DNA from: Pandoraea pneumonica
GTDB taxonomy: Bacteria > Pseudomonadota > Gammaproteobacteria > Burkholderiales > Burkholderiaceae
Assembly: GCF_902459645.1 (NCBI RefSeq)
Contig: NZ_CABPSK010000003.1
Coordinates: 1 to 64,000, forward strand
Direction of reading: 5' to 3'
DNA length: 64,000 bases
Both the position numbers and the translations under genes were made by a program. Below the pieces are notes generated by a model. The model had not been told where the DNA came from. It searched no databases and saw nothing but the letters and a program-made list of their open reading frames with translations. This document shows, piece after piece, positions 4,334 through 59,584 of this stretch (the stretch's first letter is position 1; each line of letters starts with the position of its first letter).

Positions 4334-4427
4334 TCAGCCCGGTGACCCGCCTTTCCATATCGGGATGCCTATAATCGCCAAAACGATCGATCCTCGCGTC
4401 AGACGACCACGCAACGAAGGACTCCTC

Positions 4428-44914: not shown

Positions 44915-45787
44915 ATGAACTGGACAATTGAACAATTGCGCTATTTTGTGGCGGCAGCCGAAGAGGGATCGATATCGGCTGCCGCGCGTCGTTTGGGCAA
45001 AGCCCAGTCGGCCGTCAGCACCGCCATCGCGCTGCTGGAAGCCGATCTGGGGTTCGAACTGTTCGATCGCAGCCGCCGCAACGCCCGGCTGACCGATCAG
45101 GGCGACGTCATGCTGCTCGAAGCCAAGGAGTTGTTGCGCCAGGCCGAGGGCTTGAACCACCGGGCTAATGCGCTGGCGTATGGCGAGCAGCCGCAGTTGT
45201 CGCTCGCCATCGACGAAGCGTTGCCCTATCAGGCAGTGAGCGAGCTCGTCCGCGATCTCGCGCATCAGTTCGCCTATCTGGAGCTCACGCTGCTCAACGG
45301 CACCTCCACCGAAGTGGCGGAATACGTGGAGAAGCAACGGGCCGATATCGGCTTTCACGTCGACCGTGGCGCGATTTCTTCCGCGCTTGGGCACAAGTAC
45401 GTGGGGTCAGCCGTGCAAGGGGTGTTCGTCGCGGGCGACCATCCGCTCGCCTTTCGCGATCATGTGACGCGTGGCGATCTGGCGAGATACCGGCAAATTC
45501 TGTTGCAGATGGACGACTTCACGCCCTTGCAGCTCAGCCCCTCGATTTGGCGCGCCGATAGCTCGTACGTGATCGCCAGCATGGTCGTCGACAAGCTCGG
45601 CTGGGCCGTGCTGCCCATCGACATTGCGAAGTACGAAGACCTGCACGAATTGCGCTGCGACGACTTGGGATTGCCGCAATTGCCCGTGCGCATGGTGTGG
45701 CGTTTTGGGAGAGAACCCAACGACGTGATGCGCTGGTGCGAGGCGCGATTTGGGGAATTGCTGCGCGCCAGTGTGAGCACGCAGTAG
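44915..45787 (+). CDS. LysR-family regulator of the RND operon
   Basis: A 290-residue LTTR: MNWTIEQLRYFVAAAEEGSISAAARRLGKAQSAVSTAIALLEADLGFELFDRSRRNARLTDQGDVML is the HTH. The effector domain (EQPQLSLAIDEALPYQAVSELV onward) is normal length. Divergence from the mfp-rnd-omf operon, as for MexT-type activators, suggests it controls efflux. ATG at 44915 follows a duplicated ATGG; an ATG four bases earlier is out of frame. Confidence 0.88.
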   Translation: MNWTIEQLRYFVAAAEEGSISAAARRLGKAQSAVSTAIALLEADLGFELFDRSRRNARLTDQGDVMLLEAKELLRQAEGLNHRANALAYGEQPQLSLAIDEALPYQAVSELVRDLAHQFAYLELTLLNGTSTEVAEYVEKQRADIGFHVDRGAISSALGHKYVGSAVQGVFVAGDHPLAFRDHVTRGDLARYRQILLQMDDFTPLQLSPSIWRADSSYVIASMVVDKLGWAVLPIDIAKYEDLHELRCDDLGLPQLPVRMVWRFGREPNDVMRWCEARFGELLRASVSTQ

Positions 45788-45810
45788 CGCATCCGGCGGC
45801 ATCCATCGAT

Positions 45811-45838
45811 AAAACGGGCGGCGCGCGACGCGCCGCCC
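45811..45838 (-). terminator. Terminator ending the phosphatase operon
   Basis: A perfect GGGCGGCGCG/CGCGCCGCCC stem with a three-base loop, followed on the minus strand by GTTTTATC. It sits in the 64-bp gap between the convergent LysR and phosphatase stops and may act on both. Confidence 0.85.
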
Positions 45839-45851
45839 ATCGACTCACCGA

Positions 45852-47240
45852 TTACTTCGCTTCGACGTAGGTCTCGGGCGCAGTCGCCGAGCGGTCGATG
45901 ACGCCGTCGGTCAGCGATTCGAACTGCGCCAACGTCATCCACTCGTTGCCGATGGACTTCGGTCGATACACCGCGCGCAACGGCGCGTTGGCGTCGTCGA
46001 GCGGCACGAGGTTGCGTGTCTGGTCGAGACTCTGCGCCACGTACGACACCCGAACGAAACGCTTCCCGTCGCGCGGACGAACAAAGCGTTCGAACATCAG
46101 CATGCCTCCCGGCACCACATCGTTGTCGGTATATGCGCCCAGTTTCCAGTCGAAACCGAGCATTGCGCGCACCTGCGAGATGTTGGTGTCGTGCGCCACG
46201 AACACCGTCAGCCGTGCGGGCGGCGGTACCCCTTTCACGCGCTTGGCCTTGGCAGACACCGGTGCCGCGTCTATCGCCATCGCCACCTGACTCAGCAACT
46301 GCGAGCCTCCCCGGCGCGCGAGATACGGCGTGTGATTGACCAGATCGTATTTAGCGCTACGCAAGCCCATCAGGCGGATGACATCGGCTTCGCCCTTCAC
46401 ATGCCCGAAGGCAATGCGCTCGAGCGGCCAGCCGTCCGCATACTGCATACGAATGGTCTCGCTCATGCTTGCGCCCACCGATACCGGCCCGGTCAACCCG
46501 ATCTTTCCGCTGTCCTTCACGCCCCATGCTTTCGAATACAGCCCACAGGCCTCGGCCCCTCGCTTAGCCGCGCAATCGGCCGGAACACCGACGGCATCGA
46601 CCATCGCGGCGACATCGGCCTCGTACTTCTTGCGAGCAAGTTCAGGATCGCCGCCCATCGCCTGCAAGATGGCGTCATAAGCGAGCTTGGGGTCAGGCGT
46701 GCCCAGCCCGATTTCACCGCCATGGAACAACGTGTCCGAGGCGTTGTTCGTGTGTTTCACCGGCACACCACAGCCGGGGAACATGCCTTCGAGCAGGGCT
46801 TTCGCCGTCGCCTGCGTGCGCGCAGAAGGGCTGGTCCAGACGAAGGTTTCGCTCGCACCCGCGCAGCGCCCTTCGCCCAGCAGCCCGGCACGTTTGAGCG
46901 TGCCGCGCTCCCACGCGCCCAGCAAGGTCACCGCCTTGTAGCCGTGCGGCGTCAGTTGCCCGTCCGCGACTTCGAAAGCTGGCCACGGTTGCGCTGACGC
47001 CGCGTCCATCTTCGGTGTATCGGTGGCCGCACGTACCCCGTGGCGCATCACGATCACCGCACGCTCCAATCGCAGCCCGGAAGGCGCCCACGCGGCGGAC
47101 TGCGCCGATTCGGCGGGAACAGCCTGCGCTGGTGAAGCCGCGTGCGCCCCGAAGGGCACGAACGCCGTCATCAGACCGCTGGCGATGACGCCCGCCATCG
47201 CCCCCCACCCTGCGCCGCTCACACGGCAAATTGCTTGCAT
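45852..47240 (-). CDS. Periplasmic histidine acid phosphatase (AppA/Agp family, phytase-like)
   Basis: A 462-residue secreted phosphatase of clade-2 histidine phosphatases. After a signal peptide (GVIASGLMTAFVPFGAHAA) comes the catalytic AVIVMRHGVRAATDTP (RHGxRxxT nucleophile site) and the proton-donor motif FVAHDTNISQVRAMLG (HDTN). E. coli AppA phytase has the near-identical RHGVRAPT and HDTN. It should release phosphate from phosphomonoesters such as phytate or glucose-1-phosphate in the periplasm. ATG 47240 has GGGAG nine bases before. It follows the TonB-dependent receptor after only 17 bp, so the pair is probably co-transcribed. Substrate is inferred. Confidence 0.88.
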   Translation of the reverse strand: MQAICRVSGAGWGAMAGVIASGLMTAFVPFGAHAASPAQAVPAESAQSAAWAPSGLRLERAVIVMRHGVRAATDTPKMDAASAQPWPAFEVADGQLTPHGYKAVTLLGAWERGTLKRAGLLGEGRCAGASETFVWTSPSARTQATAKALLEGMFPGCGVPVKHTNNASDTLFHGGEIGLGTPDPKLAYDAILQAMGGDPELARKKYEADVAAMVDAVGVPADCAAKRGAEACGLYSKAWGVKDSGKIGLTGPVSVGASMSETIRMQYADGWPLERIAFGHVKGEADVIRLMGLRSAKYDLVNHTPYLARRGGSQLLSQVAMAIDAAPVSAKAKRVKGVPPPARLTVFVAHDTNISQVRAMLGFDWKLGAYTDNDVVPGGMLMFERFVRPRDGKRFVRVSYVAQSLDQTRNLVPLDDANAPLRAVYRPKSIGNEWMTLAQFESLTDGVIDRSATAPETYVEAK

Positions 47241-47257
47241 GGTGTTCTGTCTCCCGA

Positions 47258-49504
47258 TCAGAAGTCGATACGCGCGTTGAGGCTGAGCGTGCGCGGCGCA
47301 CCGACCTGGAGATAGTTCTCCTGGTAGTACGACCAGTAGCGGCGATCGGTGAGGTTCGTCACGTTGGCGCGCAGCGTCACGAGCTTGCCATACACACGCG
47401 TGCGATAGCCGACACCGGCGTCGAGCAGTGCCGACGGGTTGATGTAGTTGACGTTGCCCGAGTCGATGGCCATGCCGCCGAGGTAGCGCACGCCGAACTG
47501 GAAGTACAGGCCTTGCACCGCCGGGACACGCCACGTGGCCTGGAACGCCGCCTGCCAATTCGGTGCACCGACGGCACGCTTGCCGTTCACACCTGCCGCC
47601 GCGTTCACGTACTTCGAATCGAGGCCCATCACGCTCGCGTCGAGCGTCAGGCTGCGCAGCACATCGACCGAGCCGCCCAGTTCGAAGCCCTGATAGCGCA
47701 CCTTGCCGTCTTGCACGAAGTAGTTCGCGCTGTTGACGTACTCCGCCCCGCGCTCCACACGGAACAACGCGGCCGTGGCACGCCAGCGGCCCTGATCCGT
47801 CTTCACGCCCACTTCGTACTGATGGCTCTTGATCGGGGCCATCTGTTGATTGGCGTTCTTCGTCGTGCTGTCTGCCGTGCCGCCCTGCTCCAGCGATTCG
47901 ACATAGCTGGTGTAGAACGTCAGATCGCTGCGCGGCGAGTACATCAACGCGACCGTCGGCGTGACCGGCGACGCGTGGTAAGTCGTCGCCGCCGCGGTGG
48001 CCGAAGCATGTGCGATTTCGTCGTACGTCTGGTAACGCACGCCCGCCAGCAACGACCATGAGCCGTACGAGATACGGTCGCTCGCGAAGATGGCGCGTTG
48101 CGTCAGCTTGTCGTCGCCGTACGTACCGCCGCTGAAGTTGATGTTGTTGGCCGAGTAGATCGTCGGCGAGTAGAGATTGCCGTTGCCAACGACCACCTTC
48201 GGCGTGTTGACCGACTTGTTCGATAGCAGCACGAGGTTGCTCGCGCCGAGCACGACTTCATGCGTGAGCGGCCCAGTATTGAACTTGCCTTCGACCGTTG
48301 CCTGCACTTCGTCGAACTCGTAGCTGTGATATTCGGCGCTGATGCGGTCCGAGTAGTCGCCCTTGTTGCTCGAAATGTAGTACTGATCCTTCTTGTACTG
48401 ACGCACCGAATCCGAGTAGCGATAGGCCACCTTCGCCACCCACTCCGGCGCGATCTTGTACTGCACGCCAAGCGTGGCCATTTTGTAGGTCACGTCGGTG
48501 TAAGAGCCGTTGCTATACAGCTTCGAGCGGCCCGAGATCGGACCGGGCACCAAGTACTTGGGGCTGGTGATGATGTCGACGCCGCCCGACGTGCGACGCT
48601 CTTGCCACATCGTGTCGAGCGTCACCGTCAGGTCGTTGGTCAGTCGCGCGTCGAGTCCAAGGCCCACCGACGTGCGGTTGATCTTGGCGCTATCGGCCGC
48701 CGCGTTGCCCTCTTCGTGCACGGCGTTGAAGCGGTAACCGAAACGGTCGTCCTTACCGAAACGCCCGCCCGTATCGATGTGTTCCTTCCACACGCCGTCT
48801 TCGCTCCACCCTTGGTCGTAGCTCAGCGTGAACTGCTCCGTCGCGCGCTTGGTGACGTAGTTGACGATACCGCCCGGGCTGCCGAAGCCGTACATGAAGC
48901 CCGTCAGGCCCTTGAGCACTTCAATGCGATCGAACATCTCCAGCGGCATTTCCACGCCACGGTTCACGCTTGCGAGGCCGTCGATTTTGTAGCCATTCAG
49001 GTCGTCGAGCGGCAGGCCGCGCACGGCCAGCGTGGCCGGGTGCGTGCTGTAGCTGGTGCTGATCGACGTGACCGACGCGTCGTACTTCACCGCTTCCGAG
49101 AGGATGTTGGCTTGGCGGTCCTCAATCTCTTCACCCGACACCGATTTGATCGAAAACGGCGTATCGATTTCGGCGTGATCGCCAAGCGCACCGGCGCTGG
49201 CACTGCGCTTGAGGCTCGTGGGCGAGACGATCTGCGAGGCGGAGACGTTCACTTCCGGCAGCATGGTTTCGCCAGTTGCCGCAACTGATGTCGTGGCAGC
49301 AGCGTCGGCCTTAGCTTGCGCTTGCGCAGCCAACGGCAGCAAACCGGCCAGACAGAGGCCTGCGGCGACAAGGCGCGCGTACAGCGCTGATGTGGGGAGA
49401 GACATTGGCGCTGAGCGCTTGGCGTGCTTGGTGTGCGAAGTCGTCGAAGCGCTCGCGGCGGCGGGCGAGCGATGCGTCAGGCGTTGCGATAGGTCGTGGC
49501 GCAT
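47258..49504 (-). CDS. TonB-dependent outer-membrane receptor (siderophore-receptor family)
   Basis: A ~748-residue receptor. Signal segment LVAAGLCLAGLLPLAAQAQA, plug domain with IDTPFSIKSVSGEEIEDRQANILSEAVKYDASV, LAVRGLPLDDLNGYKIDGL, VEMPLEMFDRIEVLKGLTGFMYGFGSPGGIVNYVTKRATE, then a ~22-strand barrel ending YLQVGAPRTLSLNARIDF. Fold class resembles siderophore receptors, but no siderophore gene is near; its partner is the downstream phosphatase. Start uncertain: ATG 49504 (used), 49405 (directly before signal), or 49540. A 210-bp gap lies between it and exbD. Confidence 0.9.
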   Translation of the reverse strand: MRHDLSQRLTHRSPAAASASTTSHTKHAKRSAPMSLPTSALYARLVAAGLCLAGLLPLAAQAQAKADAAATTSVAATGETMLPEVNVSASQIVSPTSLKRSASAGALGDHAEIDTPFSIKSVSGEEIEDRQANILSEAVKYDASVTSISTSYSTHPATLAVRGLPLDDLNGYKIDGLASVNRGVEMPLEMFDRIEVLKGLTGFMYGFGSPGGIVNYVTKRATEQFTLSYDQGWSEDGVWKEHIDTGGRFGKDDRFGYRFNAVHEEGNAAADSAKINRTSVGLGLDARLTNDLTVTLDTMWQERRTSGGVDIITSPKYLVPGPISGRSKLYSNGSYTDVTYKMATLGVQYKIAPEWVAKVAYRYSDSVRQYKKDQYYISSNKGDYSDRISAEYHSYEFDEVQATVEGKFNTGPLTHEVVLGASNLVLLSNKSVNTPKVVVGNGNLYSPTIYSANNINFSGGTYGDDKLTQRAIFASDRISYGSWSLLAGVRYQTYDEIAHASATAAATTYHASPVTPTVALMYSPRSDLTFYTSYVESLEQGGTADSTTKNANQQMAPIKSHQYEVGVKTDQGRWRATAALFRVERGAEYVNSANYFVQDGKVRYQGFELGGSVDVLRSLTLDASVMGLDSKYVNAAAGVNGKRAVGAPNWQAAFQATWRVPAVQGLYFQFGVRYLGGMAIDSGNVNYINPSALLDAGVGYRTRVYGKLVTLRANVTNLTDRRYWSYYQENYLQVGAPRTLSLNARIDF

Positions 49505-49751
49505 GGTGATCGAAGTGGGTGAGCTTAAGGTTGTGGTCATTTGGCAACCGGCTACGTTTAGCTCGCCGTCGGCACTGGCGCGGGCGTGCAAACGCCCCCA
49601 CCGGTGCCGCAGCAGCGGCCGGTATGCCTTATCGAAATGGGTAGAACTCGGGAGATTCAGACGATCCGCTTGCGGCGCAATACCGCAGGCGCGTCGTCTC
49701 AGGTGGCGCTGATCGCTCGAAGGCGATGGGCAGATTCCGGCCGTCGGGCCT

Positions 49752-50168
49752 TCAGCGTTTGGCGGCCTCGCTGACAAAGCCAATCTTCGCGAGACCGCCC
49801 GACTGCGCCGCCGACATCACTTGCATGACATCCTCGTACGGCGTCTTGCGATCTGCGCGCAGGTGCAACTCCGGTTGGGGCTGCGCATGGGCGGCGTCGG
49901 CAATCAGGGCGCGCATGCCGTCGACATCGACCACACGATCGTTCCAGTGGATCGCCCCTGTCGCATCGATCGCCACATCGATCGTCTGCGGCTTCACCTC
50001 GGCGGGTGCGGACGCGGCGCGTGGCAAATCGATCTTCACCGCGTGTTGCAGGGCAGGCATCGTGATGATGAAGATCACGAGCAGTACCAGCATCACGTCC
50101 ACGAGCGGCGTGGTGTTGATCTCGGGATTGAAGTCGTCTTCGACTTCGCTAGGCACAGAACCGGCCAT
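49752..50168 (-). CDS. exbD: ExbD, proton-motive TonB energiser subunit
   Basis: A 138-residue single-span protein: DDFNPEINTTPLVDVMLVLLVIFIITMPAL includes the membrane helix with the essential Asp (PLVDVMLVLLV), followed by the periplasmic domain. Works with ExbB to drive TonB. Its start codon abuts the exbB stop, so translation is coupled. As second energiser gene in tonB-exbB-exbD-receptor it appears dedicated to this receptor. Confidence 0.94.
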   Translation of the reverse strand: MAGSVPSEVEDDFNPEINTTPLVDVMLVLLVIFIITMPALQHAVKIDLPRAASAPAEVKPQTIDVAIDATGAIHWNDRVVDVDGMRALIADAAHAQPQPELHLRADRKTPYEDVMQVMSAAQSGGLAKIGFVSEAAKR

Positions 50169-50945
50169 TTATGCGGCCTCCGGCATGGCTTCTCGGCGGC
50201 GAGCATCCTTGGCCGTCGCAAGCGTCGTGGTATCGGCACCGGCATCGATACGCCCGCCGCCTTCCGGCAAGCGCTGTCCGACGACGATCATGTCGTGCAA
50301 TTCGTACGTGAACGCCGACATCGCAGCGACCGACGTCTTGTTTGCGCGCAGCAAGGCGTTGTACGCCAGCGATGCGGGGATGGCGACGGCCAGACCAAGT
50401 GCGGTCATCACCAACGTCTCACCGACCGGCCCGGCGACTTCGCCGATGCTCGCTTGCCCCGATGCGCCGATGGTCATCAACGCGTGATAAATGCCCCACA
50501 CCGTGCCGAACAAGCCGATGAACGGAGCGCTGGAGCCCACCGTCGCCAGCACCGGCATGCCGCTTTGCATGCGCACCTGACGGCGGGCGATGCGCTCGCG
50601 CAAGGCGCGGGTCAACCAATCGGACAGCACCGGCGGGGTGCGCCCGGCCGCAGTCGCTTGGTGGTGTTGCAGTGTGGCGTCGAGACTGGTGTGGGCGAGT
50701 TCGACGAACGGGTTGCCGCGCACATCACCGTCGAGCGCTGCCACGCCGTCGCGCAACGAACCGGCTTTCCAGAACGCGCCAGTGGCCTGATCGGCCATGC
50801 GGCGCAAACGCCAATTCGAGAACGCTTTGGTCACGATGACGTACCACGACGCCACCGACATCACGAACAGCATCAGGGCGACGCCCTTGATCACGCCGTC
50901 GGCTTGCGCCCACAGCGTGTCGAAACCGATTTGAGGAATTGCCAT
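50169..50945 (-). CDS. exbB: ExbB/TolQ-type proton channel subunit
   Basis: A 258-residue MotA/TolQ/ExbB protein with three membrane spans: VIKGVALMLFVMSVASWYVIVTKAF, GMPVLATVGSSAPFIGLFGTVWGIYHALM, and EVAGPVGETLVMTALGLAVAIPASLAYN. The 'APFIGLFGTVWGI' and 'ALxTTxxGLxxAIP'-like stretches are the family signature. It forms the pentameric channel that powers TonB. Placed 33 bp after tonB. Confidence 0.94.
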   Translation of the reverse strand: MAIPQIGFDTLWAQADGVIKGVALMLFVMSVASWYVIVTKAFSNWRLRRMADQATGAFWKAGSLRDGVAALDGDVRGNPFVELAHTSLDATLQHHQATAAGRTPPVLSDWLTRALRERIARRQVRMQSGMPVLATVGSSAPFIGLFGTVWGIYHALMTIGASGQASIGEVAGPVGETLVMTALGLAVAIPASLAYNALLRANKTSVAAMSAFTYELHDMIVVGQRLPEGGGRIDAGADTTTLATAKDARRREAMPEAA

Positions 50946-50978
50946 AAGAGCCTCGGGAGAAATAAGCGAATGAGCGGG

Positions 50979-51785
50979 TCAGGTGTCGAGCGAAAAACGC
51001 AACGGCACGATCACGTAGACGGCTTGCGGCTTGCCGTCCTCGGTATAGGGTTTGAACACGGCGCGTTGCACGGCCTGCACGCCAGCCGCATCAAGTGCGA
51101 CCGAGCCGGACGATTGGCGCACCGTAATCTCGCGCGGCAGGCCGTCTGCGCCGACGAGCACCCGCACTGTCACCACGCCCTCTTCCGCCATGCGGCGCGA
51201 CGACTCGGGGTAGACGAGCACCGGCGCGCGCAGGTACTGCACGCCATGCGTGATGGTGCGAGGCGTTGACGGGACGACGGGCTGCGGCGTCGCGGCGGGT
51301 GCCGCTGCGGCGCTCGGTGCCGCCGATGGCGCAGGTGCCGGTGTTGGGTCGGCCGTCGGCGCGCTCGGCGCGGGCGTGCTTTGCGGCGACGGTGCGACAG
51401 GTCGCGGCGTCACCTTGGGCACCACTTGCGGCTTCTGAGGTGTTTGGGGCTTCGGCGGCTGCGGCGTCTGAGCCTGCGGTTGTGCGACGGCGGGCGTCGG
51501 TGTCTCTTGCACGAGCGTGGCGTAGATCGGTGCAGGTGGCGTAACGACTGTCGGTTCGCTATGCCATTGCAACGCCAGCGCGAGGGCTACGCCGTGCAAC
51601 GCGAGCACGCCCGCGAGCCACAAGGTCTGCGAGGCGCGTCGCGATACCGCTTGCGGCGCACCAGACGCCACCGGGGCATCCGACGTTGCAGCAGTGCGCG
51701 AACGCACAGCTTGCGCGGAACCCGTCAACCAACTGGGCAACGCCGGGACTTGCAGCGGCGGCATCGCGCCATTCGCTCCAGACAT
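50979..51785 (-). CDS. tonB: TonB energy-transducing protein
   Basis: A 268-residue TonB. A long (~55-residue) cytoplasmic start precedes the anchor helix TLWLAGVLALHGVALALALQW, then the Pro/Ala/Lys-rich periplasmic spacer (PKPQTPQKPQVVPK..., residues ~95-180) and the C-terminal domain APVLVYPESSRRMAEEGVVTVRVLVGADGLPREITVRQSSGSVALDAAGVQAVQRAVFKPY, which contacts receptor TonB boxes. First gene of tonB-exbB-exbD-receptor-phosphatase; control region with a Pho-box-like element upstream. GGAG precedes the ATG. Confidence 0.93.
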   Translation of the reverse strand: MSGANGAMPPLQVPALPSWLTGSAQAVRSRTAATSDAPVASGAPQAVSRRASQTLWLAGVLALHGVALALALQWHSEPTVVTPPAPIYATLVQETPTPAVAQPQAQTPQPPKPQTPQKPQVVPKVTPRPVAPSPQSTPAPSAPTADPTPAPAPSAAPSAAAAPAATPQPVVPSTPRTITHGVQYLRAPVLVYPESSRRMAEEGVVTVRVLVGADGLPREITVRQSSGSVALDAAGVQAVQRAVFKPYTEDGKPQAVYVIVPLRFSLDT

Positions 51786-51861
51786 CGAACTCTCCTTGCG
51801 CGTCTTTGCAAACGCAGGTCATCAACGGCATCGAATCGCACGCGGTTATTTTTGCAATCTA

Positions 51862-51879
51862 TTTGCACACGTGTGCAAA
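51862..51879. promoter_or_regulatory. Perfect 18-bp palindrome in the tonB leader
   Basis: TTTGCACACGTGTGCAAA is fully symmetric. It lies about 80 bp upstream of tonB, and just downstream of the predicted start site (~51910), a position suited to a repressor. Related TTGCA elements occur nearby (ATTGCA..TGCAAT at 52031-52048). Confidence 0.75.
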
Positions 51880-51916
51880 ACGACGCAGACAACATGCGAT
51901 TCGGACAACGAGACGA

Positions 51917-51950
51917 ATTGTAGAAACTACGTATGACCTCACCGTGACAG
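51917..51950 (-). promoter_or_regulatory. Pho-box-like promoter for tonB operon
   Basis: The minus strand at 51933-51950 reads CTGTCACGGTGAGGTCAT, two 7-base repeats (CTGTCAC, AGGTCAT) with 4-base spacing as in PhoB boxes. Ten bases on is TACAAT (51917-51922), the same box-to-minus-10 distance as I recall for E. coli pstS. The second repeat has two mismatches. Confidence 0.5.
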
Positions 51951-52027
51951 GGCTGGCCGTAGGCAGTGAATTTTTCGTGTTGTCCGCGGGGGCTTCGCTT
52001 GGGGTCTGACGTCGTGTTGCAAACGTG

Positions 52028-52048
52028 AAAATTGCAATCGAATGCAAT
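52028..52048 (-). terminator. Possible weak terminator/dyad after imp-family gene
   Basis: ATTGCA and TGCAAT flank a six-base loop and are followed on the minus strand by TTTTC, about 30 bp past the inositol-monophosphatase gene stop. The stem is short, so read-through to tonB is possible; it might instead be a regulator dyad. Confidence 0.35.
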
Positions 52049-52076
52049 ACCGGTGAAACAAATGCCGTGACGACGC

Positions 52077-53021
52077 TTATTCAGGAGACGGGTCGCCGTG
52101 CCGGATCGATGCACCGACGATATCGTTGAGCGTGTTGTAGAGCGGCTTGCTGGACGCAAGAATCGGATTGCCGCGCGTTAGCCCGTCGTCCGCCAGAAAG
52201 TCGCTTACGCGCCCACCGGCTTCTTGCACGAGCACCACACCGGCCAAGCAGTCCCACGCATGAATGTGCGGTTCGTAATAGCCGATGAGTCGCCCAGCGG
52301 CGGTATAGGCCATCATCAGCGCGCCAGAGCCAATGCGTACGAACATGCCTCCGCGCGCGAGCCAGCCATCGAGAAACGACAGAAAGTCTGCGCGGTCGAC
52401 ACGATGCGATACGCCCACGCCGAGCACGCCTTGTGTCGGCGCATCGACATCCGCCACATGCAACGCCGTGCTCACACGCGTGATGTTCGATTCGCCGCCG
52501 TCGGGCTGGCGCGGCGTCGATGGGCTTGCCAGCACGGCGTTGTCGACGAAAGCACCGCGTCCGGTCGCACTGTGAAAGAGTTCATCGGCATTCGGATCGT
52601 AGATCGCGCCAATCGCGGGCACGCCGTCGACGATCACCGCGATCGACACACACCACGCATGCATGCCGTGCAGAAAGCAGGCCGTACCGTCGATGGGATC
52701 GACCACCCACATGACGCGCGATGCCGTTGGGATGCGGCCTGCCGCTGCACTTTCTTCGCCGAGGAAGGCATCGTTCGGAAATGCAGCCGCCACACGCTCG
52801 CGTACCAGTTGCTCGATGGCGCGATCGGCCACGCTCACGACATCCTGCACGCCTTTGTATTCCACCGTCAGCGCATCACGCGTGCGGAACATGGCGAGTG
52901 CGCGAAGACCAGCCTCACGGGCGATGACTTGCGCAAGTTCATATCTCGAATCGAGGGTATCGAGTGTGCCGTCGGCACCAGCGCTTGCCGACGGCGTCAT
53001 TTGACGTTCTGTCCCGGTCAT
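52077..53021 (-). CDS. Inositol-monophosphatase-family phosphatase
   Basis: A 314-residue Mg2+-dependent phosphatase (FIG superfamily). Metal motifs are FLGEESAA, WVVDPIDGTACFLHGM and HIHAWDCLAGVVLVQEAGGRV, all with key acidic residues. No signal peptide, so cytoplasmic. Its ATG overlaps the upstream ATPase stop, so it is part of the ABC operon and likely dephosphorylates the imported sugar or inositol phosphate. Members also act on fructose-1,6-bisphosphate, histidinol phosphate or PAP; the exact substrate is unknown. Confidence 0.88.
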   Translation of the reverse strand: MTGTERQMTPSASAGADGTLDTLDSRYELAQVIAREAGLRALAMFRTRDALTVEYKGVQDVVSVADRAIEQLVRERVAAAFPNDAFLGEESAAAGRIPTASRVMWVVDPIDGTACFLHGMHAWCVSIAVIVDGVPAIGAIYDPNADELFHSATGRGAFVDNAVLASPSTPRQPDGGESNITRVSTALHVADVDAPTQGVLGVGVSHRVDRADFLSFLDGWLARGGMFVRIGSGALMMAYTAAGRLIGYYEPHIHAWDCLAGVVLVQEAGGRVSDFLADDGLTRGNPILASSKPLYNTLNDIVGASIRHGDPSPE

Positions 53022-54148
53022 TGAGCGGCTCCTACGATGGCTGCGCCACGTGCATGCAAGCCGACGGCGACGCGCGTGCCGACGGGGAACGGAATTTCGA
53101 ATTGATGTGACAAGACCACGAGGTCTCCTGCGGAGGTTTGAACGAAGTACTGCGTGGCGCGCCCCAGATAAGTGGCGCGCCGGATTTCACCGATAGGACC
53201 GCGCGGCGCGTCGGCGCAGTCTTCGGAATTTCGGACTGAAGCGGGGACGGCATGCAGCGTCAGCGCTTCCGGGCGGATGGCGACGCGAGCGTGGGTCAAC
53301 GCCGGTCCGGCATACGGCAACGTGAGCGGCAGCCCGTGAAAATCGCATTGCGCGTGACCGTCGCGTTGGGCGATAACGGGCAGGTCGATCAGGTTGGCGT
53401 TGCTGATAAATGTCGCGACAAACGCATCGGCGGGCTGCTCGACGAGCGTGCGCGGTGCGTCTTGCTGCGCGATGCGGCCGTCGTGCATGACGATCACTTG
53501 ATCGCTGATCGCCAGCGCCTCCTCCTGATCGTGTGTGACGTAAACCACCGTCAGACCGAGTTGCGTCTGAAGATCGCGGATGTCTTCACGCACGCGCACC
53601 CGCAGGCGAGCGTCGAGATTCGAGAGCGGTTCGTCGAACAACATGACTTCCGGCTCAAGCACCAAGGCTCGCGCGACGGCCACCCGTTGTTGCTGTCCAC
53701 CGGATAACTCGGCTGGCATGCGTTGCGCCATCGCGGTGAGACCGACGCGCGCGAGCGATTCTAAAACGCGCTCGCGTAATGCCTGCTGGGGCACGCGCGT
53801 GACCGTGAGGCCATAAGCGACGTTCTCGAACACACTCATGTGCGGAAACAGCGCGTACGACTGAAACACCATGCTGACGTCGCGATGTTGCGCGCCAAGG
53901 CGTGTCACGTCCCGGCCGCCGAGGGTGATGCGTCCCGCGTCGGGAAGCTCAAGCCCGGCGATCAGGCGCAGTGTCGTCGTCTTGCCGCAACCACTGGGTC
54001 CGAGCAATGTCGTCAATGTGCCCGGTGCCACGGTGAACGACAGATCGGGGATGGCGACATGATTGCCCCATGCCTTGCGGACGTTCTCGAAAGTTAGCGC
54101 GCCGCGGGTGTTGGGTGCGATCTGAGGTGCGAATTGAGGGGCGTTCAT
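53018..54148 (-). CDS. ABC importer ATPase (PotA/FbpC/AfuC type)
   Basis: A 376-residue importer ATPase. Walker A LLGPSGCGKTTTLRLIAG, Q-loop MVFQSYALFPHMSV, signature ELSGGQQQRVAVARAL, Walker B VMLFDEPLSNLDARLR and H-loop VYVTHDQEEALAI. The C-terminal ~110 residues form an OB-type TOBE domain. It energises the fused permease. The start overlaps the permease stop and the stop overlaps the phosphatase start. The class includes Fe3+, polyamine and sugar-phosphate importers. Confidence 0.9.
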   Translation of the reverse strand: MNAPQFAPQIAPNTRGALTFENVRKAWGNHVAIPDLSFTVAPGTLTTLLGPSGCGKTTTLRLIAGLELPDAGRITLGGRDVTRLGAQHRDVSMVFQSYALFPHMSVFENVAYGLTVTRVPQQALRERVLESLARVGLTAMAQRMPAELSGGQQQRVAVARALVLEPEVMLFDEPLSNLDARLRVRVREDIRDLQTQLGLTVVYVTHDQEEALAISDQVIVMHDGRIAQQDAPRTLVEQPADAFVATFISNANLIDLPVIAQRDGHAQCDFHGLPLTLPYAGPALTHARVAIRPEALTLHAVPASVRNSEDCADAPRGPIGEIRRATYLGRATQYFVQTSAGDLVVLSHQFEIPFPVGTRVAVGLHARGAAIVGAAQ

Positions 54149-55992
54149 GCGAGGGATTTCCTGCCGATTCGAGACGTGCGTGCTGTGCGTGGTGTTCGCG
54201 GTGCGTCACCGGGCGTTTCGGACGGCGGCAGGGTCGTCGCCACCGTCATGCGAGTGCGTTTGGTTTCGCTCGCCCGCAAGCCCGCCTCCAGCGATACGAC
54301 GATGGCGAACAGCACCACGACCAACACGCCTGCATAGGCCAGCGCGGGACCATAGCTGCCGTTCGAGATGAGGCCGATCAGGTAGGTCGTAGCAAGATCG
54401 TGATCGGCGCTCACGAGAAATACGACAGCGCTCACGGCCGTGGCTGCACGCACGAAGCCGTAGATAAGCGCCGCCGCGCAGGCGGGGCGCAGTAACGGCA
54501 GCAAGACGCGGCGCAGCGTTGTCCAACTGCCTGCACGCAGGGTCGCCGACGCCTCGTCAAGACTCGGATCGATCTGTGCCAATGCGCCCACCGTCGTGCG
54601 CAAGCCCATCGGCATGTTTCGGAACAGAAACGACAGCACGAGAATGGCCCCGGTGCCGGTCAGCGCCAGCGGTGCGGCGTTAAACGTCTGCGCGTAAGCC
54701 AGACCGATAACGGTGCCCGGAATGGCGAAAGCGGCGACGAGGGCGCCCTCCAGCCAGCGCCGCCCGGCAAACTGACGGCGCGCGATCAGCCAGCCGCCGA
54801 GTACGGCGGCAATGGCCGTCAGGGGCGCGGCAATGGCCGCCAGACGTAACGTTTCCAGCGCCGAAGGCCACGCCTGACCGGTGAGCGTCAGCGCGCCGTC
54901 TTCTATCGCGATGCCGAACACGTCGGTCAGGTGCGCCAGCGTCCAATGGAAATCGACGCCCCACAACGTCACGAACCCGCCCGCGAGCAACGTGCCGTAG
55001 ACCGCCAGCGTCAACAGGCACCACGGCGCGACAAGTGCCGTCAGCGACCATGAGAGACGTGCGTCGAGCGGCGCGGCGCGGCCGCCTCCGCCCTTCCCGT
55101 TCACCGCGACATAGCTGCGCTCACCTAGCCAGCGGCGTTGCAGCGCGAACGCGCCGAGCGCTAGCAACAGCAACCAGACCGCGAGTGCTGCGGCGCGGCC
55201 CGGATCTTGTTCAGCGCCGACAACGGCAAAGTACAGATCGGAAGACAGCACCCGGAAGTTGCCGCCCAGCACCAGCGGATTGCCGAAGTCGGCAAGACTC
55301 TCGATGAAACACAGCAGCCATGCATTGGCGAGACCGGGACGCATCATCGGCCACGTCACGGTGCGAAACGTTTGCCAATGCGTAGCGCGCAGCGTGGCGG
55401 CGGCTTCTTCGAGCACCGCAGGCAGGCGCTGCACCACGCCCACCACCGTTAGAAAAGCGACTGGCGTGAATGCCAGACACTGCGCAAGCCAGAGGCCCAG
55501 GGGACCGTACAGCCAGCGCCCCGGGGCGACACCCAGCGCGTTGGCAATGGCTTGCGTGATCGCGCCGTTGCGTCCGAGCAGCAGAATCAACGCGAGCCCC
55601 ACGGCGAAGGGAGGCGTGATCGCAGGCAGCATGGCGACACCGCGCAGCAACGCCGCTCCGGCTCGCGAGCGCGCCAGAGCGCCGCGCGTGGCGAGTAACG
55701 CGAGGGCTGCACCGAGCACCGTCGATGCCACTGCGGACGCGATACCAAGCGCAATGCTGTGCCAGCCACTGCCGCAGGCGCCGACGCCGCGCAAGCAGCC
55801 GAGCCGCCAAACGTCCGGGGCCAGTGTCGTCCACACGGCTCGCAGATCGCCGCCCGCGCTTTGCCATGCGGGCACCAGCGAGAAAAGGCTATTGGCAAGC
55901 GGCCACGCGACGAAAACACCGAGTGCCAGCACGGTGGCAATCAGCACACCGCGCGTGAACACGTCGTGCGGCAGCTTAGCGGGCGTGGGCAT
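54145..55992 (-). CDS. ABC importer permease, two domains fused
   Basis: A 615-residue membrane protein with two binding-protein-dependent permease halves. EAA loops appear as EEAAATLRATHWQTFRTVTWPMMRPG (residue ~190) and DEASATLRAGSWTTLRRVLLPLLRP (~500), so one polypeptide supplies both halves, as in FbpB/AfuB. First helix GVLIATVLALGVFVAWPLAN. Start ATG 55992 (MPTPAKLPH) overlaps the binding-protein stop by 17 bases. Confidence 0.9.
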   Translation of the reverse strand: MPTPAKLPHDVFTRGVLIATVLALGVFVAWPLANSLFSLVPAWQSAGGDLRAVWTTLAPDVWRLGCLRGVGACGSGWHSIALGIASAVASTVLGAALALLATRGALARSRAGAALLRGVAMLPAITPPFAVGLALILLLGRNGAITQAIANALGVAPGRWLYGPLGLWLAQCLAFTPVAFLTVVGVVQRLPAVLEEAAATLRATHWQTFRTVTWPMMRPGLANAWLLCFIESLADFGNPLVLGGNFRVLSSDLYFAVVGAEQDPGRAAALAVWLLLLALGAFALQRRWLGERSYVAVNGKGGGGRAAPLDARLSWSLTALVAPWCLLTLAVYGTLLAGGFVTLWGVDFHWTLAHLTDVFGIAIEDGALTLTGQAWPSALETLRLAAIAAPLTAIAAVLGGWLIARRQFAGRRWLEGALVAAFAIPGTVIGLAYAQTFNAAPLALTGTGAILVLSFLFRNMPMGLRTTVGALAQIDPSLDEASATLRAGSWTTLRRVLLPLLRPACAAALIYGFVRAATAVSAVVFLVSADHDLATTYLIGLISNGSYGPALAYAGVLVVVLFAIVVSLEAGLRASETKRTRMTVATTLPPSETPGDAPRTPRTARTSRIGRKSLA

Positions 55993-57151
55993 AAATTTCC
56001 GTGTTCCAGCGCTGCAACAGGCGCTTGCGCGTGGCGGGGTCGCCGAAGCGGGCGGCGTCGTAATCAATCAACTTGATGCTGGCGGGCAGTGGCGCGAGCT
56101 TCGGTATCGCGGCGTCTCGGTTGGACGGCAGTTGGTAGGCGTGCGCCTGTTCGGCGAGCGACTGCACGTCGGCACGCAAAGCGAATTCGTAGAACTGTTT
56201 TGCGAGCGCGGGATGCGCTGCGCCTGCGATCAGACTCATGCCGCCGATTTCGAAGCCTGTGCCTTCGCATGGGGCGACGGTGGCAATGTCGAAACCTGCG
56301 ACGCGTTGCTTGACGAGGTCGTGCAGGAATTCGATCGCGATGCTCGCTTCGCCGCGTGATGCCGCTTCACCCGGTGCGACGCCTGTCGCGGTGTATTGGC
56401 TGACGTTGGTGTTCAGCGCGCGCAAGTAGCGGAACGCTTCGTCCTCGCCCATCAGTTGCACGAAGGTGGCGAGTGCGACGTAGGCGGTGCCCGATGCGTT
56501 TGGATTGGCGATCTGAATCTCGCCCTTCCATGTGGGTGCGAGCAGGTCGCGCCAGCATTTCGGCGGATCGAGGCGGCGTTTGCGCAATTCCGTCGCGTTA
56601 TAGCCGATGCCGAGCAGTCCCTGATACACGCCGACGGTGCGCTCACGCCCCGTCTGTGCGAAGCGCTGCGCCCAGGGCTGCAACTGCGGCAGAGACGGCG
56701 AGCGGTACGCCTCGGTAAGCCCTTCGAACGCGGCTTGCAGATGCGAATCGCCGGAACCTGCCCACCACACGTCGAATTGGGGGCGGGCGCGTTGCGCGGT
56801 GAGCAGCGCGAGGGCTTCGCCCGCACTTTTACGAATCATCGCTACGCCGATGCCTGTGTCTTTCTCGAAGCGCTTCTTCATCAGTTGGCACCATTCGAGA
56901 TCCGCCGAGCACAGCAGGCTCAGACGGTCGGCGGCGTGCGCGGTCGATGGCGGCAGCATCGTTGCGGCGGCTGCGATGCACAGCGCGGCGGCGAGCGTGC
57001 GGCGTGCCGTTCGTAGCAGCCGGACCGCGAAACCGACGCGTGCGGGTAGCGCGGGTTGGGCGGGTCGCGTCGATAGCGCGGCCCGTATCGACGCATTGCA
57101 CTCGTTTGCAATGTTGGGCGCAACGATCGGAGGTTTGGGCTTCGTAAGCAT
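55976..57151 (-). CDS. Periplasmic substrate-binding protein (AfuA-like)
   Basis: A 391-residue periplasmic binding protein with an unusually long n-region; the hydrophobic part TLAAALCIAAAATMLPPSTAHA ends near residue 73. Core: LLCSADLEWCQLMKKRFEKDTGIGVAMIRKSAGEALALL, then FDVWWAGSGDSHLQAAFEGL. The WW-G-G-D-x-H block is typical of AfuA-type proteins that bind hexose phosphates though commonly annotated as iron transporters; no paired Tyr iron motif (YY) is seen. I infer a phosphorylated ligand. Start is ATG 57151, 36 bp after lacI-type gene. Confidence 0.85.
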   Translation of the reverse strand: MLTKPKPPIVAPNIANECNASIRAALSTRPAQPALPARVGFAVRLLRTARRTLAAALCIAAAATMLPPSTAHAADRLSLLCSADLEWCQLMKKRFEKDTGIGVAMIRKSAGEALALLTAQRARPQFDVWWAGSGDSHLQAAFEGLTEAYRSPSLPQLQPWAQRFAQTGRERTVGVYQGLLGIGYNATELRKRRLDPPKCWRDLLAPTWKGEIQIANPNASGTAYVALATFVQLMGEDEAFRYLRALNTNVSQYTATGVAPGEAASRGEASIAIEFLHDLVKQRVAGFDIATVAPCEGTGFEIGGMSLIAGAAHPALAKQFYEFALRADVQSLAEQAHAYQLPSNRDAAIPKLAPLPASIKLIDYDAARFGDPATRKRLLQRWNTEIYAHAR

Positions 57152-57187
57152 GGGAAGGGGCGGAGTCGGTCCGTGATGGGCGCTGTG

Positions 57188-58207
57188 TCAGCCAGTGGTG
57201 GCGCGGCGCACGAAGGTGACGGGAGCGATGCGGACTTCTGCGGCACGCGAGAAGTCGGTGATGCGGTGGGAGAGCATGTCGACGACGCTATGGGCGAGCG
57301 TGTCGGTGTTCTGTGCGATGGTCGACAGGCGATAGCTGTCGAGCGCGGCGTGCTGGATGTCGTCGAAGCCGACGAGGCGCATGTCTTCAGGGAAGCGGCG
57401 GCCAAACGTGCGGCGGGCTTCGTCCATGAACCCGAGCGCAACCATGTCGGTGGCGCAGAAGACGCCGTCGGGCGCATGCGCCGCGTCGGCTAGCACTTCA
57501 CGCGCCGCGAGTTGCCCGGCTTCGTACGACGAGATCGTGGAATTGCACAGCGTGATCCGGTTCTTGCGCACGCCCAGACGGGTGAGTGCGTCGACATAGC
57601 CTTCGCAGCGTTGGCGGCCGCTGAAGTGCGTGGTGTGCGGCCCAATGAAGGCGAAACGTGTCGCGCCGGAATTGAACAGTTCGCGCGCGGCGAGTGCGCC
57701 ACCGGCGTGGTTATCGCTGTTGATGACGTCCGCGCCTTCGAGTTCGGGGGCACGGTTGATCATGGCGACGGGCACTTTTCGCTCGATGTACTCGCGCGCG
57801 AGTGAGAGCGGCGGTGCGCCGGACGTCATGATGACGCCTGCGATGCGATAGCTCAGCAGACGCTGCAAGGCGTAGCTGGTCTGATCGGGGTCGTCGGCGT
57901 TCATGAGAATGGGCAGCAAGCCGCGCGCGCCGAGGTGATGGGCGATGGGGGCGAGCAGTTGAGCGCGAAAGGGGCTGACCAGCGCGGAGGTGACGACGCC
58001 CACGAACGTGCTCCGACCCTGAATCATGTTCCGGGCGTTGATGTCGACGTGGTAGTTCAGCGTCTTCGCGGCTTCGAGCACACGGGCGCGCGTCTTAGGC
58101 GAGACGCTGGCACCGGGTGTGAAGGTGCGCGAAACGGCAGAGCGAGACACCCCAGCCATGCGCGCCACATCCTCGGCAATCGCCCAGCTCTTTTCTTTGT
58201 CGGTCAT
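57188..58207 (-). CDS. LacI-family regulator of the ABC operon
   Basis: A 339-residue LacI protein: IAEDVARMAGVSRSAVSRTFTPGASVSPKTRARVLEAAKTLNYHVDINARNMIQG is the HTH plus hinge, then a sugar-binding-type effector domain (VGVVTSALVSPFRAQLLAPIAHHL, GARELFNSGATRFAFIG). First gene of lacI-SBP-permease-ATPase-phosphatase. A LacI regulator suggests that the imported ligand or its dephosphorylated product is sugar- or polyol-like. Start ATG 58207 has no strong binding site. Confidence 0.88.
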   Translation of the reverse strand: MTDKEKSWAIAEDVARMAGVSRSAVSRTFTPGASVSPKTRARVLEAAKTLNYHVDINARNMIQGRSTFVGVVTSALVSPFRAQLLAPIAHHLGARGLLPILMNADDPDQTSYALQRLLSYRIAGVIMTSGAPPLSLAREYIERKVPVAMINRAPELEGADVINSDNHAGGALAARELFNSGATRFAFIGPHTTHFSGRQRCEGYVDALTRLGVRKNRITLCNSTISSYEAGQLAAREVLADAAHAPDGVFCATDMVALGFMDEARRTFGRRFPEDMRLVGFDDIQHAALDSYRLSTIAQNTDTLAHSVVDMLSHRITDFSRAAEVRIAPVTFVRRATTG

Positions 58208-58511
58208 CGAAACAATGGGAGCGGGTACGCGAAAGAGGCCAGCACGGAAGTGGTCGCGCCAGCACGATGACCGCGTAGCTTAAAGGCGGGGTGTGTCGGA
58301 TGTGTGACAGGGGGAATGCCACTTGGTAGTGCCGATAGATACGGCTCCGTCCAAACGCAAGTGGAGGACTGAGGACATCCCCACCAGCTTTTAGGAAAAC
58401 CCAAGTAGGCACGCTACCGGATTTCTTATAGCGATGATAGTTGATTGGAATCCATAATAAATGGCAGAATTCGCCATCTACACGAGCACTAAAATAAACA
58501 AGGAAAAATAA
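58208..58511. other. Gap upstream of the LacI-type gene
   Basis: A 304-bp divergent region. GC falls toward the right end (58430-58511). I cannot fix a LacI operator palindrome or clear promoter, and see no coding frame. Confidence 0.35.
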
Positions 58512-58880
58512 ATGCACCCAGTGATAGCGAAGACTTTCGGTGGCCTGTCTGTTCAGTACTACACTCGTCAGTTTCTCTTTGGCCTGATTTTCCCCGCACT
58601 TATCTTGTTCGTTTTGAATCGGGGTAATCAGCCGCACGGGCCAGCATTTATGGCTTACGCACTGTTTGCGATCAACACATTGCTATACCCTTATTCTCGC
58701 TTCGTCTATGAGAGCATCGTCGGCTATATCATGGGCAGCAACGTCTTCTTCGTGAATGCAATTCTTATGCTATTCGTAAAATCGATCACGATGGCAATCT
58801 GCTGGTCGTTCGCAATCTTTATCGCGCCGTTCGGTCTCATGTACCTCTATTTTCACCACAGCCGGAAATCGGCCGGTTAA
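58512..58880 (+). CDS. AT-rich orphan membrane protein, unknown function
   Basis: A 122-residue hydrophobic protein with about three membrane segments (FLFGLIFPALILFVL, AFMAYALFAINTLLYPYS, FVNAILMLFVKSITMAICWSFAIFIAPFGLMYLYF) and a short basic tail. The DNA is markedly less GC-rich than its neighbours, with AT-rich third positions, so it looks acquired. A good AAGGA lies eight bases upstream. No family recognised; size and hydrophobicity recall small immunity or phage-associated membrane proteins, but that is only a resemblance. Confidence 0.65.
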   Translation: MHPVIAKTFGGLSVQYYTRQFLFGLIFPALILFVLNRGNQPHGPAFMAYALFAINTLLYPYSRFVYESIVGYIMGSNVFFVNAILMLFVKSITMAICWSFAIFIAPFGLMYLYFHHSRKSAG

Positions 58881-58923
58881 ATTGGCGCGACTTGGTGTCG
58901 CGAATCCAGCAACGTACGTGTCT

Positions 58924-59175
58924 TCAAATTCCCGCACGTCCTAACTCAGCAACCTCGCTCTCGGTGTTGTTCGCAAAAAGTGCCCCTTCGGCATTGGCAC
59001 ATTTAGGCGGCGCACCGAAGCACGCGCTTTTGTACGTGTCCGCTACGTTCGACAGCGTCAGCTGTGATTGAACGCGTATCGCCCTGCCGCCATCTACACG
59101 CACGACCGCACCGACAAAGTAGTCATATGGGCCTCGATGGTGCCGCAGTCGACGCGGGGGGCGGCCAAGCCTCAA
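58924..59175 (-). pseudogene. Possible gene remnant next to tRNA-Arg
   Basis: An 83-codon minus-strand frame from TTG. The latter part (YDYFVGAVVRVDGGRAIRV...SNVADTYKSACFGAPPKCANAEGALFANNTESEVAEL) reads like real protein, including two Cys, while the Arg/Pro-rich start does not. It lacks a start codon with ribosome-binding site. I think it is the tail of a former gene, possibly island-derived. It could be coding by chance. Confidence 0.3.
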
Positions 59176-59290
59176 ACGGGCTAATTGCGCTCGCTGGACC
59201 TAGCCACCGAAGTGAGCAGTGCATTGGTTGATGAAAGTGCGATGAACACGCAACTCGATGGAAGCGGGCGACCGTGGGCCCTTGTAGAAC

Positions 59291-59367
59291 TGGCCTGCCC
59301 AGAGGGATTCGAACCCCCGACCGTCGGCTTAGAAGGCCGATGCTCTATCCAACTGAGCTATGGGCAG
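59291..59367 (-). tRNA. tRNA-Arg (UCU)
   Basis: A 77-nt cloverleaf on the minus strand: acceptor CTGCCCA/TGGGCAG, D arm GCTCAGTTGGATAGAGC, anticodon loop CTTCTAA with UCU, T arm GGGGGTTCGAATCCCTC, discriminator G and encoded CCA. Its 3' end faces the AT-rich patch at 58430-59290. Confidence 0.96.
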
Positions 59368-59584
59368 TGCGTGTTGGCGGCGACCGAGTGTCGCTGCCGG
59401 AAGGTTCCGGGGCGTTCAGCGCTTTGCGGTAGATGATTCGCAATCGCAAACTGCACGCAAACGCCCGAGGAATCGGCGATTATAGCGCACGCGCATGCCA
59501 ATTTCATCCGCGCCGCCTCGGGAGATGTCCTCTTTACGTGCCACTCCCTTCCCATCTAGACTGCTGATGTGGAGGGACGCGCTC

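Follow-up and report, generated by a model that had tools for sequence, protein, structure and literature searches.

To our knowledge, bacterial uptake of phytate-type compounds, as opposed to their mere hydrolysis outside the cell, seems to be a largely open subject. Relevant parts are known: AfuABC importers, PhyK- and AppA-type phytases, inositol monophosphatases (IMPases), and a receptor gene beside a phytase gene. Here we describe a ten-gene locus of Pandoraea pneumonica, contained in a stretch of 64,000 nt (contig NZ_CABPSK010000003.1, positions 1 to 64,000; termed the window in what follows), that encodes a LacI-family regulator, an AfuA-like ATP-binding cassette (ABC) importer, an IMPase-family enzyme, TonB, ExbB and ExbD, a TonB-dependent receptor and a histidine acid phosphatase. 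From sequence comparison we take this locus to be a two-input inositol-phosphate capture module, a reading to which we give a probability of about three in four.

Klebsiella carries a phytase operon whose 3-phytase, of the type of PDB entry 2WNH, is named PhyK, and Pho-like control of the operon has been suggested (PMC11219571; papers are cited here from excerpts of their text). Our searches of open-licence literature, including the excerpts of PMC11219571, turned up no description of LacI control of it. In K. pneumoniae and K. aerogenes a LacI-family gene (product 48-49% identical to that of the window) heads genes for an IMPase, a major facilitator superfamily (MFS) importer and a histidine phosphatase. 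The K. aerogenes MFS gene is annotated in pieces, as glycerol-3-phosphate permease and UhpC, and the K. pneumoniae operon phosphatase scores 877 bits against 2WNH. The K. pneumoniae regulator, IMPase and phosphatase are respectively 49, 50 and 33% identical to their counterparts in the window. The operator of the window also precedes the Klebsiella IMPase gene, perfect in K. aerogenes (at 12 nt) and near-perfect, with one mismatch, in K. pneumoniae (at 14 nt). The window thus shares with Klebsiella the joint presence of LacI subfamily, operator, IMPase and histidine phosphatase, but has an ABC importer and a receptor instead of the MFS importer. No receptor or TonB-ExbBD lies in the Klebsiella stretches, and the Pho-box-like pattern described below has no match in K. 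pneumoniae and two, in the opposite direction, in K. aerogenes.

AfuABC of Actinobacillus (PMC4546632) shares with the window its binding-protein family and the essential ring-binding residues; it differs in that the window importer is linked to an IMPase and a phytase-type gene, and has a predicted rather than a determined ligand. In Citromicrobium a TonB-dependent receptor gene adjoins a phytase gene, with phytate as the proposed substrate, and a receptor cluster counts phytate among its listed substrates (PMC3400609). This pairing of receptor and phytase recurs in the window, whereas TonB-ExbBD, ABC importer, IMPase and LacI go unmentioned in the excerpts of PMC3400609. The first-pass annotation knew of no described system with all these parts, and we likewise found neither the ten-gene combination, nor a LacI operator of a phytase operon, nor joint PhoB/LacI control in the open-licence literature, including the excerpts of PMC11219571, PMC12838507, PMC3400609, PMC9414882 and PMC2597717.

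Two half-modules and their predicted control sites

All ten genes are intact and collinear on the minus strand (Table 1; sequence re-read, with Pfam and NCBIfam annotation), so the order, coordinates and domain families named in the first-pass annotation all hold. The genes form three blocks. The first, here termed the ABC half, comprises lacI, the gene of the periplasmic substrate-binding protein (SBP), permease, ATPase and IMPase; tonB-exbB-exbD follow after 291 bp, and receptor and phosphatase, 17 nt apart, after a further 346 bp (together the TonB half). The gaps between IMPase and tonB and between exbD and receptor imply at least two transcription units.

We compared this arrangement with a same-genus sample of 32 genomes (source genome included) and a family sample of 398. 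A phosphatase orthologue (at least 73% identical, besides self) occurs in 7 of the 32, and an SBP orthologue (at least 78%, besides self) in the identical seven. A tblastn search with the ten proteins shows the complete set in unchanged order in each of the six relatives holding both, the TonB alignment in one (G022) being limited to the last 99 of 268 residues. The relatives of the window that bear names comprise Pandoraea sp. PE-S2T-3, P. iniqua, P. bronchicola, Pandoraea sp. ASV26 and a metagenome-assembled genome. Paraburkholderia sp. Ac-20340 and P. tropica also have all ten genes in the same order. In the family sample (E <= 1e-80) the phosphatase was found in 9 genomes, the SBP in 13 and both in 8 (Fisher p 8e-13, for genomes that are not phylogenetically independent). 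The first-pass annotation named halves that never co-occur as a ground for refutation; the comparison of gene order finds them together in all nine genomes whose phosphatase is at least 56% identical (seven same-genus, two Paraburkholderia), so this refutation fails. A DNA search of a plasmid collection gave four records, each with a single short piece of 74-78% identity.

Both halves carry a LacI-type operator. In all 5.85 Mb of the genome the pattern TTGCANACGNGTGCAA has just two exact matches, one per half. Around its one-mismatch places C1:1533805 and C3:552444, the fetched 7 kb have no match to the nine module genes other than the receptor, to PI-PLC-locus genes (see below), to iol genes or to porin; both are treated as chance. 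The SBP-start and tonB operators are present in all seven same-genus modules, and both Paraburkholderia have one operator before the SBP gene (one mismatch) and two before tonB. Across the 32 same-genus genomes there are 25 matches to the pattern, of which the module accounts for 14, the PI-PLC/ABC/LacI locus for 10 and other sequence for 1, versus one match for a reversed control pattern; in the family sample it is matched in at least 68 genomes, and the control in 2, among the matches listed. Fourteen places outside the genus were fetched, of which eight are of PI-PLC type, one is a hybrid ABC/IMPase/porin locus (L085), one lies beside a porin remnant (L086) and four precede a lipoprotein gene. 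The LacI stretch GVSRSAVSRTFTPGAS is identical in the regulator of the K. pneumoniae phytase operon.

The promoters of the two halves also carry Pho-box-like 18-mers, each 10 nt upstream of a -10-like hexamer. The scan pattern was the consensus Pho box followed, after 10 nt, by TA...T. With up to 4 mismatches it matches the window twice, at exactly these promoters, and no match appears at gaps of 5-9 or 11-15; 20 Markov-1 random sequences of equal length gave a mean of 0.05 matches. When up to 5 mismatches are allowed, eight loci of relatives have 15 matches at gap 10, all at the same two promoters, whereas any other gap between 4 and 16 gives 0-3; this count lacks the lacI promoter of P. tropica, which lies outside the fetched stretch. 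All seven same-genus loci have the lacI-half site, as does Paraburkholderia sp. Ac-20340, with 3-5 mismatches. Footprinting by sequence conservation marks a TGTCA-type block at both promoters, and the pstS promoter of the same genome has the same layout with 5 mismatches. At the tonB promoter, the transcription start expected from the hexamer falls between two LacI sites. Fourteen of the fetched sister loci gave five Pho-box matches (one each in L072, L073 and L085, two in L094), none of which could be placed upstream of, and pointing towards, a gene of module type. A scan for a sigma-70-type consensus found no promoter, versus a shuffle mean of 1.4, which fits Pho-type promoters without being evidence for them.

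The common operator and the Pho-box-like promoters tie the halves together wherever both are present, and from their sequences the two look like one regulon. The simplest reading of the promoter layout is an AND gate, in which PhoB would activate and the LacI-family protein repress.

If both regulators bind as their sites suggest and flow is inward, the parts could work as follows. Upon phosphate starvation PhoB would turn on both transcription units, which the LacI-family repressor would keep blocked until it senses inositol or an inositol phosphate. Powered by its own TonB-ExbBD, the receptor would move an inositol polyphosphate across the outer membrane; this would be phytate, perhaps bound to a metal as a chelate. 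In the periplasm the PhyK-like histidine acid phosphatase would trim it, freeing phosphate. What is left, an inositol monophosphate, would enter the cell through the AfuA-like ABC importer, and the IMPase would strip the last phosphate. We consider it slightly more probable than its contrary that the module represents the first full pathway by which inositol polyphosphate is actively taken up over both membranes, with an energised phytate receptor, a PhoB promoter between two LacI operators (AND logic), and an inositol-phosphate-sensing LacI with an operator whose conservation extends from phytase operons of Klebsiella to the PI-PLC and iol loci of Burkholderia. With its named parts, three operator sites and two promoters, the module makes questions of uptake and regulation directly testable.

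Table 1. Genes and predicted control sites of the locus (window coordinates)
Feature	Position	Strand	Basis or remark
Pho-box-like 18-mer CTGTCACACATCCGACAC, lacI/ABC-half promoter	58293..58310	-	10 nt before TAAGCT (58282-58277)
LacI-family regulator, probable inositol-phosphate-responsive repressor	57188..58207	-	Pfam LacI + Peripla_BP_3
LacI-type operator TTGCAAACGAGTGCAA, within first codons of SBP open reading frame as drawn	57096..57111	-	one of two exact genome places
AfuA-like periplasmic binding protein (SBP), translation start uncertain	55976..57151	-	PDB profile match to AfuA
Fused ABC permease	54145..55989	-	two BPD_transp_1 stretches
ABC ATPase	53018..54148	-	TOBE_2 domain
Inositol monophosphatase-family phosphatase (IMPase)	52077..53021	-	PF00459, 179 bits
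Second, weaker LacI-type operator TTGCATTCGATTGCAA, 2 mismatches, upstream of tonB promoter	52032..52047	-	footprint in 7/7 same-genus loci
Pho-box-like 18-mer CTGTCACGGTGAGGTCAT, tonB-half promoter	51933..51950	-	10 nt before TACAAT (51922-51917)
Perfect palindromic LacI-type operator TTGCACACGTGTGCAA before tonB	51863..51878	-	exact pattern match
Dedicated TonB	50979..51785	-	PF03544, TonB_C
ExbB/TolQ-family protein	50169..50945	-	PF01618
ExbD/TolR-family protein	49752..50168	-	PF02472
TonB-dependent outer-membrane receptor, siderophore-type family	47258..49405	-	Plug + barrel domains
Histidine acid phosphatase, phytase-type, signal peptide by eye	45852..47240	-	PF00328 (His_Phos_2)

Sister loci and the predicted ligand

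The LacI subfamily, together with the operator or a near match, recurs in four sister arrangements, among them the Klebsiella operon described above. A second is a locus of Pandoraea and of Burkholderia type (for example L051 and L075) encoding a PI-PLC-X (phosphatidylinositol-specific phospholipase C, X domain) protein. It occurs in 10 of the 32 same-genus genomes, the same ten that have any PI-PLC-X match; ABC importer, LacI and PI-PLC-X are together in all ten, and an IMPase in nine. In L051:8061-14123 and homologues (L049-L058, L075-L078, L081-L083, L087) the PI-PLC-X gene is divergent from the lacI paralogue, and the L051 protein has no obvious signal peptide by eye. The locus resembles the module in its LacI (51% identical), its identical operator and its ABC import. 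It differs in that the importer is of SBP_bac_1 type with two permeases, PI-PLC-X replaces the phytase, no receptor is seen, and the Pho-box-like pattern has no match in the four loci scanned (L049, L051, L075, L078). By gene content it looks like a system for importing glycerophosphoinositol or phosphoinositide under the same operator.

At locus L072 (by its genus label from the same genus as Paraburkholderia sp. Ac-20340) the LacI/SBP/permease/ATPase/IMPase half lies beside divergent inositol genes (4398-7707), namely iolG (420 bits, cut-off 355) and an iolC-aldolase fusion (1028 bits, cut-off 600), with an operator between the starts. The fourth arrangement is that of Rhizobium, where a lacI (product 40% identical) lies between genes for a glycerophosphodiester phosphodiesterase (GDPD) and an IMPase, after an ABC importer, and the operator has two mismatches. 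Besides these four, a further genome (L069) has genes for a distant AppA-type phosphatase and an outer-membrane porin adjoining the ABC half, each preceded by an operator.

The first-pass annotation read the locus as capturing organic, phytate-like phosphate, with hexose phosphates as an option. That reading is supported, and the sister operons narrow it from organic or hexose phosphate to inositol phosphates, the predicted common denominator of these loci. No same-genus genome has iolE, a gene of myo-inositol catabolism, over cut-off (0 of 32), 22 giving weak scores of 20-25 bits versus a cut-off of 290. Together with the Pho-type promoters, this absence points to phosphate scavenging rather than carbon gain, and phosphate, not carbon, is likely what the module's bearers gain. 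For the relative at L072, which has iol genes, inositol may be a carbon source. Searching with the conserved operator is a way to look for more genes related to phytate, phosphoinositides and inositol.

The lipoprotein downstream of some operators is of twin-arginine translocation (TAT) type, conserved, and about 523 aa long (L074:4751-6319, L079:6469-8037, L080:4902-6470, L084:6292-7860, and L069:2-868, where an operator is likewise upstream). It has no Pfam, PHROG or convincing PDB relative, and its AlphaFold model, at a pLDDT of 31.5, is unusable.

Evidence from the parts and competing readings

The phosphatase matches PF00328 at 87 bits, with an N-terminal RHG and a C-terminal HD; the motifs RHGVRAAT and HDTN are invariant in all seven phosphatases aligned. 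The AppA-type label of the first-pass annotation stands as to the histidine acid phosphatase family and not as to AppA itself: the protein scores 224 bits against the AppA-family model NF007552, below the cut-off of 585, and is for this reason classed as an AppA relative. Its best PDB profile match is 2WNH, the Klebsiella 3-phytase PhyK, and it scores lower against a glucose-1-phosphatase model (151 bits, cut-off 425) than against phytase models. It is probably a phytase-type enzyme, with phytate as the predicted substrate. A second, distant (33%) histidine acid phosphatase is encoded elsewhere in the genome (G000:C2:1126765-1127952), and such a match occurs in 24 of the 32 same-genus genomes.

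The SBP profile best matches PDB entries 4R72-4R75 (AfuA; E 1e-106). AfuA H205, D206 and E229, whose loss abolishes binding (PMC4546632), correspond to SBP H277, D278 and E301 (by eye, HMMER alignment); D278 and E301 are invariant in 15 of 15 aligned sequences and H277 in 14. The S-G-T phosphate loop, described in PMC8427247, is kept.

Receptor orthologues are 88-97% identical in the six same-genus relatives and 75% in both Paraburkholderia. Among the matches listed for the 398 family genomes, a receptor of at least 76% identity occurs in the 8 module genomes only, the next being 45%. The receptor has no match in L066, L069-L073, L085 or L091-L094. Several sister loci have a gene for a general porin next to that of the same regulator. 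The assignment of an inositol-phosphate cargo to the receptor draws on its co-regulation, its module-only occurrence in the family sample, the sister-locus porins and the lack of a Fur-like site; it is the weakest link of the proposed route.

Several observations weigh against an inositol-phosphate capture module. AfuA Ser37 is replaced in the SBP by Ala110, and AfuA binds hexose and heptose phosphates, inositol being unmentioned in the excerpts of PMC4546632. With one mismatch allowed, the operator pattern is no richer in the source genome than its reversed control, and the operator precedes the TAT-type lipoprotein in 4 of the 14 fetched family loci, so operator presence alone is no proof of inositol-phosphate function. 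The Pho-box matches depart by 3-5 mismatches from the consensus. The phosphatase motif RHGVRAAT has Ala in place of the last Pro of the family motif, which we take to be RHGxRxP, and Chitinasiproducens palmae has a 47% identical phosphatase without the other nine genes in the 21 kb seen. The ABC half lacks the TonB half in 5 of the 13 SBP-bearing family genomes. Four of these five loci have LacI, ABC importer and IMPase and one the ABC genes alone (L073, with ABC matches but none to the LacI and IMPase queries); no TonB-half gene was found in the five fetched stretches, except for a distant phosphatase (33%) in one. Loci L065 and L068 belong to one genome, counted once. Finally, the receptor scores 319 bits against the siderophore-receptor model TIGR01783 (cut-off 223.5), and among solved structures FemA and BauA are closest to it.

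The receptor scores and the separate occurrence of the ABC half would suit an iron module, in which receptor and TonB-ExbBD import a ferric chelate (a xenosiderophore, or ferric phytate serving as siderophore), the phosphatase frees the iron, and the ABC importer and IMPase are an add-on. A TIGR01783 match marks a sequence family and is no proof of cargo. A Fur box was sought with a consensus: the module promoters have no match at up to 7 of 19 mismatches, the sole matches in the module lying inside exbD, and the promoters carry Pho-box-like and LacI sites instead. The AfuA-type ring-binding residues of the SBP, the restriction of family-sample receptor orthologues to module genomes among the matches listed, and the porins beside the same regulator in sister loci also speak against iron, which we regard as improbable.

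Scavenging of hexose or other sugar phosphates in the manner of AfuABC, with phosphatase and IMPase acting on glucose-1-phosphate or fructose phosphates, appears less probable still. It would explain why the SBP is closest to AfuA, with the H205/D206/E229 equivalents kept, and why the phosphatase scores at all against a glucose-1-phosphatase model; but that enzyme is nearer to phytase in both models and PDB entries, and where sister operons have the same LacI subfamily and an identical or nearly matching operator, they contain PI-PLC, PhyK phytase, GDPD with IMPase, or iolG/iolC.

Import of 2-aminoethylphosphonate by a PhnSTU2-type system with unrelated neighbours, suggested by PhnS2, PhnU2 and PhnT2 being among the best NCBIfam models for the three ABC parts, is rejected as very improbable on the cut-offs of these models (161 of 393, 218 of 593 and 330 of 458 bits), and no phosphonate enzyme lies within the ten genes, while the AfuA profile match of the SBP is far stronger than that to the 2-aminoethylphosphonate-binding protein in PDB (E 1e-106 versus 8e-13).

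Gene starts and neighbouring features

Some gene boundaries were revised. The phosphatase is a protein of 462 aa (45852-47240), replacing a mechanical open reading frame of 735 aa. For the receptor, ATG 49405 is the most likely start, which gives 715 aa. The permease reading frame reaches TTG 56067, and ATG 55989 is the likelier start.

The exbD-receptor gap (49406-49751, 346 bp) folds somewhat more stably than shuffles (49400-49751, z -2.4). It has no Rfam match to a known RNA or riboswitch, a tRNA being the sole find across 45600-59500. This tRNA-Arg (tct) gene lies upstream of the module, at 59291-59367, and in G010, G027 and G009 its 3' end is within about 240 bp of lacI. Its closeness to lacI, together with the presence of the module in 7 of 32 genomes, suggests that the module may occupy an integration hot spot.

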